Shown here piece after piece: positions 5,717-8,021 of a stretch of 64,000 nucleotides of DNA. The stretch lies in contig NZ_JAFIDC010000001.1 of the NCBI RefSeq assembly GCF_017052655.1, positions 868,001 to 932,000 on the forward strand. The letters run 5' to 3'. Each line of letters opens with the position of its first letter. Positions within the stretch are counted from its first letter, which is position 1. Under the pieces are notes generated by a model. That model did no database searches, was not told the origin of the DNA, and worked only from the letters and a program-made list of their open reading frames with translations. The stretch is from Acholeplasma equirhinis. Lineage in GTDB: Bacteria > Bacillota_I > Bacilli_A > Acholeplasmatales > Acholeplasmataceae. Both the position numbers and the translations under genes were made by a program.

Positions 5717-7987
5717 TTAATACCAGGTAATGTTTTTATTTATATCAATGTTGAATTCCTTAGTTGATACAAGTAAAGACTTAACTGATTCTTCTATTTT
5801 TTGATACTTCATTAATAATAAGACACGATAATGATTTTCTAACTTTAAAGGGGTTGCATCTATAGGTCCTAAAACTTGAATGTTTTCAAGTGCCAATTTG
5901 TTTTTTAAAATGTGTGCATATTGATGAACTCTCAAATAACTTTCTGCTGAAATTCTTATTTGTAAAAGTTCATTAAATGGTGGTAGTTTGGATACTTTTC
6001 GATTGGATAGTTCTGCTTTATAGAAAATGTCTTCGCTACTTAATGCACTTAAGACAAAATGGTTACTATCATATGCTTGAATTACAAGATCATCTTTCGC
6101 GATATGTTTTGCATCATTTAAGATTTTAAAACCAACTTCGTTCGCATCAAATCTTGGTAGTTTTAAGAAACTATCAGCAAGTAAAACACCAACTAAAGAA
6201 ATTTTATCTTTAAAGAGTGATTTTAATGCCATTTGAGTTCCGATAAATATTTTTCTATCTTTTAACGTTGTATTTTTAATGATTTCATATGTTTCTTTTG
6301 AACTTAAGGTATCTTTATCAATTTGAATGATGGTTTCATTTGGATATACTTTGTTTAGATACGTTTTTAAAAGTTCAATCCCCGCACCAACTGGTTTCAT
6401 TGAATCTTTACCACAAATAGGACAAGTCTTTGTAAAATGTTCTTGATATTTCGTTAAATTTGACCTTAACATACCGGTCTTTTCAATGTAATTTAATGGA
6501 ATATCTGTTGCAGGATCTTTTGGAACATGGGAACAACTTCGACACATGACAAATCGAGATAATCCTTTTTGATTTAAAACGAGTAAACTATTTTTATTTA
6601 AAGTAAGTGCTTCATCTATTTTTTCTCTTAGAACATGACTTAACATCTTGGTATTACCAAGTTTAAGTTCTTCTTTCATATCAACTAAAGTTATCTTGGT
6701 GTCAAAGTTATCTTTCTTTAAATCAATATAAGTATAGTTACCTAAATCGATTTGATAAAAATCATTTAAGGTTTTCGTATGTGTATTTAAAAAGAGTGGA
6801 ATTTGATTGATTTCAGCTCTTAAAGTTAAGAGTTTAAATGGATCATAATAGAGGCCTTCAAATGGATAATAAGCCTCATCGTGACTAAATAGAATAAAGA
6901 TGCCACCTAAGTTTTTAAACTGTGTAAAAACAGATAAACGTGTTCCAATCGCAATCCTTGCATCATTATCCAATAAACTTTCTTGATTTAAATAACGTTC
7001 TTTATACGTTTGATCACTTGAAATCCCCACAACCAAAACATCTTTAAAACCTTCTTTAAATAAATCTATATAGTGGTCAACCATAAACTTTTCTGGAACG
7101 AGTACTAAGACTTGTTGACCTTGATCAATGATTTTTCTTACTGCATGTTGAATAAAGGTTCTAGAATCTTCGTTCATACCTTCAATTAAATACGTATTAA
7201 ATTGATTGAACTCAATTTCATTAAAAGGTTTTTGAAGTTTATCTTTTAATGGTTTTAATTCAAGTCTTTCTGTTGTTTCATCTTCTAAACGCTTTAAAAT
7301 ATCCAGTTCTTCTAGACAGCCATTTTTAATTAGGGTTTTAATTGAACTTGAACCATAAATCTCAACAAGTTCTTTTTTAAGTATTTTATATCGGCCATCA
7401 AAATGACTAACAATTTCTTTATGACGATCCGTCTTAACCAAACTACCATTTTTTAAAATTAAGTATGTAATATACTCTTTTTTAACTTTAGGTGTCAAAA
7501 TGGTTTCAATTTTTACATAACCTTTCTCTTCAAGACGACGTAGTTTGGGGTAAAGATTTTGATCTTTCTTTTTTAAAATGAATTCATTTTTTGTATTAAA
7601 TATGGATTTTAATTCAGTATCTACGTTCTCTTCATCAAGTAATGTGATTTTTTTAATGTAATACATGAGCATGTCATTTGGAATCATAGCCTCAATTGCA
7701 CTTGCAATTAACGTATTTGGAACCTTTAACATCTCATCTAGAAGTATAAAAAATTCATCACTTAAAATTGGAGTTAAATCGATGACTTCTTTGATTGTTT
7801 TAGTTGCAGCATCACTTTCATTTTTAAGTTCAACAACTAAACCTAATCTTTCAATATTATGATCAGTAAAAGGGACAATGACTCTCATCCCTCTTTTAAT
7901 TGTTTCAACTTCTGTATCAGGTACAAAATAGTCAAAAACTTGATTAATTTCTTTATGTTTGATGTCAACAATGACCGATGCAATCAT
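5717..7987 (-). CDS. priA: Primosomal protein PriA with eroded helicase motifs
   Basis: PriA reloads the replicative helicase at stalled forks. The 756-residue product has the N-terminal PriA DNA-binding start (MIASVIVDIKHKEINQVFDYFVP) and the helicase fold (QGQQVLVLVPE at 289-299, GTQMALKSLF at 583-592, LPPFNELLQIRIS in the C-terminal domain). The key motifs are missing. The Walker A position reads EGMNEDSRTF (269-278) instead of GSGKT, the DEEH box reads HDEA (369-372), and no GRAGR motif VI is present. Only four zinc-site cysteines (482, 485, 522, 525) are seen. I infer a structural primosome factor without ATPase activity. The ATG at 7987 follows AGGTGA and a TATAAT at 8010-8005. Confidence 0.88.
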   Translation of the reverse strand: MIASVIVDIKHKEINQVFDYFVPDTEVETIKRGMRVIVPFTDHNIERLGLVVELKNESDAATKTIKEVIDLTPILSDEFFILLDEMLKVPNTLIASAIEAMIPNDMLMYYIKKITLLDEENVDTELKSIFNTKNEFILKKKDQNLYPKLRRLEEKGYVKIETILTPKVKKEYITYLILKNGSLVKTDRHKEIVSHFDGRYKILKKELVEIYGSSSIKTLIKNGCLEELDILKRLEDETTERLELKPLKDKLQKPFNEIEFNQFNTYLIEGMNEDSRTFIQHAVRKIIDQGQQVLVLVPEKFMVDHYIDLFKEGFKDVLVVGISSDQTYKERYLNQESLLDNDARIAIGTRLSVFTQFKNLGGIFILFSHDEAYYPFEGLYYDPFKLLTLRAEINQIPLFLNTHTKTLNDFYQIDLGNYTYIDLKKDNFDTKITLVDMKEELKLGNTKMLSHVLREKIDEALTLNKNSLLVLNQKGLSRFVMCRSCSHVPKDPATDIPLNYIEKTGMLRSNLTKYQEHFTKTCPICGKDSMKPVGAGIELLKTYLNKVYPNETIIQIDKDTLSSKETYEIIKNTTLKDRKIFIGTQMALKSLFKDKISLVGVLLADSFLKLPRFDANEVGFKILNDAKHIAKDDLVIQAYDSNHFVLSALSSEDIFYKAELSNRKVSKLPPFNELLQIRISAESYLRVHQYAHILKNKLALENIQVLGPIDATPLKLENHYRVLLLMKYQKIEESVKSLLVSTKEFNIDINKNITWY

Positions 7988-8021
7988 AAAAATCACCTAT
8001 AGTTATTATAACATTTAGGAC

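Follow-up and report, generated by a model that had tools for sequence, protein, structure and literature searches.

A PriA protein without ATPase motifs is maintained across Acholeplasma and may act as an ATP-independent platform for helicase loading

The 64,000-nt stretch of the Acholeplasma equirhinis genome analysed here (the window) contains a priA gene whose product has lost the motifs of its ATPase, raising the question of what, if anything, a PriA without a motor is kept for. The reading frame of 756 codons and a stop occupies 5717..7987 on the minus strand, as do all features given below, and starts with an ATG at 7987; it is open without interruption over 5717-7996, where a GTG at 7996 offers an alternative start, so the frame is as intact as a preliminary description of the locus had stated. 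The N-terminal 3′-DNA-binding domain (PF17764; residues 1-103, 7679..7987) scores 57.9 bits against a cut-off of 22.7 (E 1e-15), the C-terminal domain (PF18074; residues 661-756, 5720..6007) 36.7 bits against 26.9 (E 8e-9), and the whole protein 260 bits against the curated cut-off of 230 for the NCBIfam PriA model TIGR00595. A winged-helix region (residues 104-235, 7283..7678) was placed by homology and by an AlphaFold2 model built from 23 sequences (mean pLDDT 86, pTM 0.81). The best Foldseek matches of this model are all PriA, with 6dgd and 4nl4 first, and VIA-align superimposes it along its length on PriA chains with Z 27-30 over 554-659 residues, as a two-lobe PriA architecture. By domains, profile and fold the protein is PriA, and its predicted two-lobe core seems to have outlasted the loss of the ATP site. 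It is also the only PriA copy in a genome of 99.75% estimated completeness; a second was not found there, and Mfd (1140 aa), RecG (653 aa) and one further helicase-type protein match only in short motifs. The gene order priA-fmt is preserved, adjoining rbfA and infB.

The state of the helicase motifs was read from an alignment of 75 family loci that includes intact relatives. Lobe 1 (residues 258-425, 6713..7216) keeps its fold in the model and has lost its ATP motifs. The Walker A sequence G(V/I)TGSGKT of intact relatives is matched by GMNEDSRT (residues 270-277, 7157..7180), in which EDSRT stands in place of GSGKT and whose columns hold four to six different residues in eight species. At Walker B, IIIDEEHDASY of intact relatives aligns with IFILFSHDEAY, so that the DEEH column reads LFSH (residues 366-369, 6881..6892); the earlier reading of this motif as HDEA was three residues out of register, but both acidic residues are gone and the conclusion drawn from it stands. 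The GRSGR of motif VI is replaced by a stretch four residues shorter and without arginine (residues 622-631, 6095..6124), and motif III (SAT), which was not on the earlier list of losses, is missing as well. Still present are motif Ia (LVPE, residues 296-299, 7091..7102; all members of the genus share its P and E), motif IV (NQKG...FVMCR) and motif V (GTQM, residues 583-586, 6230..6241). Judged by its sequence, the protein would not qualify as an active PriA helicase of the SF2 ATPase type, since Walker A, Walker B and the motif VI arginines are all wanting, and passing the TIGR00595 equivalog cut-off would lead annotation to call it an ATP-dependent helicase, a label that this finding corrects.

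The same pattern runs through the genus. All eight Acholeplasma species lack motifs I, II, III and VI and retain Ia, IV and V, each with an intact frame, at protein identities to the window PriA of 37-45%; nearly all sister genera retain the ATP motifs, and a loss common to all eight members against that background is far beyond chance. It is highly unlikely that the substituted residues bind nucleotide after all and form an unconventional working ATPase. Such a site should be conserved, yet the ATP-contact columns of motifs I, II and VI vary freely (mostly three to six different residues across the eight species), and no new invariant residue replaces the K, D, E or arginines in these columns among them, which argues that no substitute or hidden ATP site is maintained. 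The same species show almost no variation in motif V and FVMCR, and it is the persistence of motifs Ia, IV and V, with the predicted lobe fold, that speaks for a working ATPase. The model itself runs against one, with a strand at 265-269 and, after only a short loop, a helix from 273 onwards, so that a P-loop would hardly have space. In E. coli PriA, moreover, a change of lysine to arginine is alone enough to abolish the ATPase (PMC4504706).

Whether the frame is under selection was read from the closest pair of species (G004/G005), in which 38 synonymous and 10 non-synonymous changes give a dN/dS of 0.063, a low value for the genus that has this one close pair as its basis. Neutral expectation is 70-79% non-synonymous changes (P 4e-12 or less for transition biases of 1-6), and lobe 1 alone has 6 synonymous against 2 non-synonymous changes. 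Domain-by-domain constraint was measured with RecG identity as a clock, to which the identity of each PriA domain is tightly related among intact genera. Acholeplasma lies below this relation by 8.1 residual SD in lobe 1, by 2.7 in lobe 2 (cysteine-rich region excluded) and by 1.3 in the cysteine-rich region, whereas the 3′-DNA-binding, winged-helix and C-terminal domains depart from it by only -0.1, -0.4 and -0.4 SD; species pairs being non-independent, these values are effect sizes rather than measures of significance. When RecG identity is the same, Acholeplasma has a lobe 1 identity of 0.33 and intact genera one of 0.62, compared with 0.51 against 0.53 for the 3′-DNA-binding domain and 0.43 against 0.47 for the C-terminal domain. 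Divergence beyond that of intact genera is thus a matter of the helicase lobes alone, lobe 2 being somewhat relaxed as well.

This distribution bears on the possibility that the gene, its helicase function having become superfluous, is slowly being lost, as in most mollicutes, from whose genomes PriA is missing (PMC1193525). Intact frames in eight of eight species at such low identity, the dN/dS of 0.063 and normal constraint on the DNA-binding and C-terminal domains make slow decay very unlikely. A loss of constraint in the motor alone is instead what a helicase-independent role predicts, unlike general decay. The Acholeplasma gene is not decaying and selection on it is purifying, as the preliminary description had supposed when it proposed that selection keeps a helicase-independent protein; the combination it named as counting against that proposal, a second intact PriA together with relaxed selection on this copy, fails on both sides.

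The protein has also changed in the cysteine-rich region (6413..6544). Standard PriA has eight zinc-site cysteines; here the outer CxxC pairs, C482/C485 and C522/C525, are kept and the inner four replaced, so that what had been described as a partly persisting zinc site is exactly one of the two. This holds for 8/8 species, and a new conserved stretch at about residues 489-520 accompanies the loss. The window protein would thus be a PriA with a single zinc site, unlike the standard form. In E. coli PriA the inner zinc site is tied to partner assembly, and its loss throughout the genus means that partner contacts may have changed, which counts against a role in handing sites to restart proteins. 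The lost site and the new stretch could also be taken as signs of a function unrelated to restart, for instance in transcription or as a structural DNA protein, but all restart partners are present in the genome, the DNA-binding domains are normally constrained and priA and fmt keep their order next to rbfA and infB, so that a new function of this kind is very unlikely.

Loss of the motor is not peculiar to Acholeplasma. The comparison with PriA of other Acholeplasmataceae and phytoplasmas that the preliminary description had proposed, once run, finds the motif loss recurring in one phytoplasma clade, and an RpoB tree covering 29 genomes requires about five losses, of which at least three are forced by well-supported branches. 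Those in Acholeplasma, in the phytoplasma clade and in genus g14 are firm. Two further ones come from weak genomes and were left out of the firm losses: in G080 (g13) the gene is truncated by the end of a contig and loss can be seen for motif I only, and G017 (g6) is 77% complete and sits on a very long branch. The Acholeplasma and phytoplasma losses are separate because genus g2 and early-branching phytoplasmas, including G055, keep the motifs. The motif-less phytoplasma genes, found in 13 genomes, have one origin, and their products retain the full set of eight cysteines and the lysine of Walker A while the P-loop glycines and motif VI arginines are lost; the motif-less lineages outside Acholeplasma in general keep seven or eight zinc cysteines.

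The phytoplasmas also provide a case for decay, since priA is frame-broken in three genomes (G058, G061 and G069; L137, L138 and L139) and undetected in five incomplete ones, so that in this group the motif-less gene can, at least in some cases, be done without. Against this, the motif-less lineages outside Acholeplasma have dN/dS below 1 (0.09-0.41 in phytoplasmas and 0.19 in genus g14), similar to the 0.18-0.24 of intact phytoplasma priA, a range given by two informative pairs. In phytoplasmas G054 and G062 recG is likewise split (L144, L145), and the split priA and recG genes could be pseudogenes or assembly errors. Outside the family, PriA relatives without motifs I, II and VI were seen in Aminicenantes, an uncultured bacterium and Omnitrophota (L105, L107 and L112), and motorless PriA may be more widespread than has been reported; no relatives were found among viral contigs.

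We consider it reasonably likely, with somewhat less assurance than we attach to the account of the window protein given below, that helicase-dead PriA is a recurrent and stable state: that this family lost the motor on three or more occasions, probably five, with selection continuing to act on the remaining functions, that the motor is dispensable in nature for restart of the DnaD/DnaB/DnaI type, and that in Acholeplasma the cysteine-rich region was rebuilt around a single zinc.

The proteins with which a motorless PriA would have to work are encoded. DnaD/DnaB-type domains occur in 86/88 family genomes, and the gene after dnaB in the window's genome encodes a 266-aa AAA+ protein that carries GPYGTGKS, a DnaI-like loader (L135:2949-3749). 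The DnaI N-domain (PF07319) has no match among the 88 family genomes, but the loader was not scored as absent because this DnaI-like gene adjoins dnaB; its helicase-binding domain may have diverged or been replaced. RecA is present, and RecG is intact with GSGKT, DEQH and RGRIGR. The dnaD gene, an RNase III gene, plsX and recG form one cluster (L136:1485-5733), and the spacing of dnaD and recG is similar in many family genomes. The SSB C-terminus reads DDDLPF in the window's genome; a change in this tail as compensation was considered and rejected, since, of the seven genus members covered, six share this tail and the remaining one has DEDLPF. In phytoplasma G065, 17 SSB matches in a small genome, many of them short or interrupted, suggest that ssb is carried on mobile units.

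Taken together, these observations favour, at a probability of roughly three in four, the reading that the window protein is a PriA pseudohelicase which has lost ATP binding and hydrolysis and serves as an ATP-independent fork-binding platform for loading the replicative helicase. On this account, and very probably so from the sequence, the protein would neither bind nor hydrolyse ATP. Forks and D-loops would be recognised through the 3′-DNA-binding domain, winged helix, C-terminal domain and the DNA-facing surfaces of the helicase lobes, as homology and constraint suggest, and the site would be handed to DnaD, DnaB and the DnaI-like loader, which would place the replicative helicase. Fork binding with DnaD/DnaB-type loading, as the preliminary description had put forward, fits the retained domains and the encoded partners. 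Clearing of the lagging strand would be left to other enzymes, of which RecG is the obvious candidate; that RecG also remodels the forks is speculative.

A further proposal would add to the platform reading rather than compete with it, namely that loss of the motor was favoured as RecG remodels forks and a dead PriA avoids harmful unwinding. In E. coli, helicase-dead priA300 suppresses most recG defects, and PriA and RecG act as antagonists at forks (PMC5055574). RecG is found in every motif-less genome outside the phytoplasmas, and a phytoplasma clade without RecG mostly keeps its PriA motifs, but intact genera carry RecG too and several phytoplasmas have a motif-less PriA without it. The RecG-PriA association within phytoplasmas (raw Fisher P 0.04) comes from a single tree change and is gone with independent pairs; we treat it as conjecture because it amounts to one PriA state change on the RpoB tree and is not significant. 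Such a division of labour is possible but doubtful. The converse idea, that loss of RecG drove loss of the motor because PriA unwinding is harmful without it, is contradicted by the non-phytoplasma motif-less genomes, all of which have RecG.

Among known systems, actinobacterial PriA (the NCBIfam PRK14873 group) is also annotated without helicase motifs. The window protein, however, scores far better with PRK05580 (387 bits) than with PRK14873 (87 bits), and the actinobacterial proteins have been described as 'smaller and very divergent' (PMC1193525). Bacillus PriA recruits DnaD, DnaB and the loader, and the same partner set as in the PriA-DnaD-DnaB-DnaI pathway of Bacillus subtilis is encoded in the window's genome, although B. 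subtilis PriA is an active ATPase; a review describes it as unsettled whether restart requires the PriA motor (PMC10804225). Motorless Acholeplasma and their close relatives with an intact motor provide a ready-made comparison on this need, and A. laidlawii grows in the laboratory. E. coli PriA K230R (priA300) has, through one substitution, no ATPase or helicase, and retains primosome assembly in viable cells (PMC4504706, PMC5055574), but it is a laboratory point mutant, whereas the Acholeplasma state is natural and maintained across a genus. The closest parallel in kind is D. radiodurans PriA, which has no ATPase or helicase activity yet binds forks and its DnaB helicase, and for which a loading role without unwinding has been proposed (PMC4504706). 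As in that pseudohelicase, the ATP motifs of the window PriA are degraded while the frame and PriA domains are retained. In Deinococcus the Walker A lysine has become arginine and motifs I and II are poor across the phylum (PMC4504706); in Acholeplasma, by contrast, free variation extends to four motifs, the protein has lost its inner zinc site, the family also contains close relatives with an intact motor and the genome encodes the DnaD/DnaB/DnaI-type pathway. No report of a motif-less PriA in Acholeplasma or phytoplasmas was found in the open-access literature. While helicase-dead PriA is itself known from Deinococcus, its recurrence within one family beside intact sisters, the constraint resolved by domain and the form with a single zinc are new.
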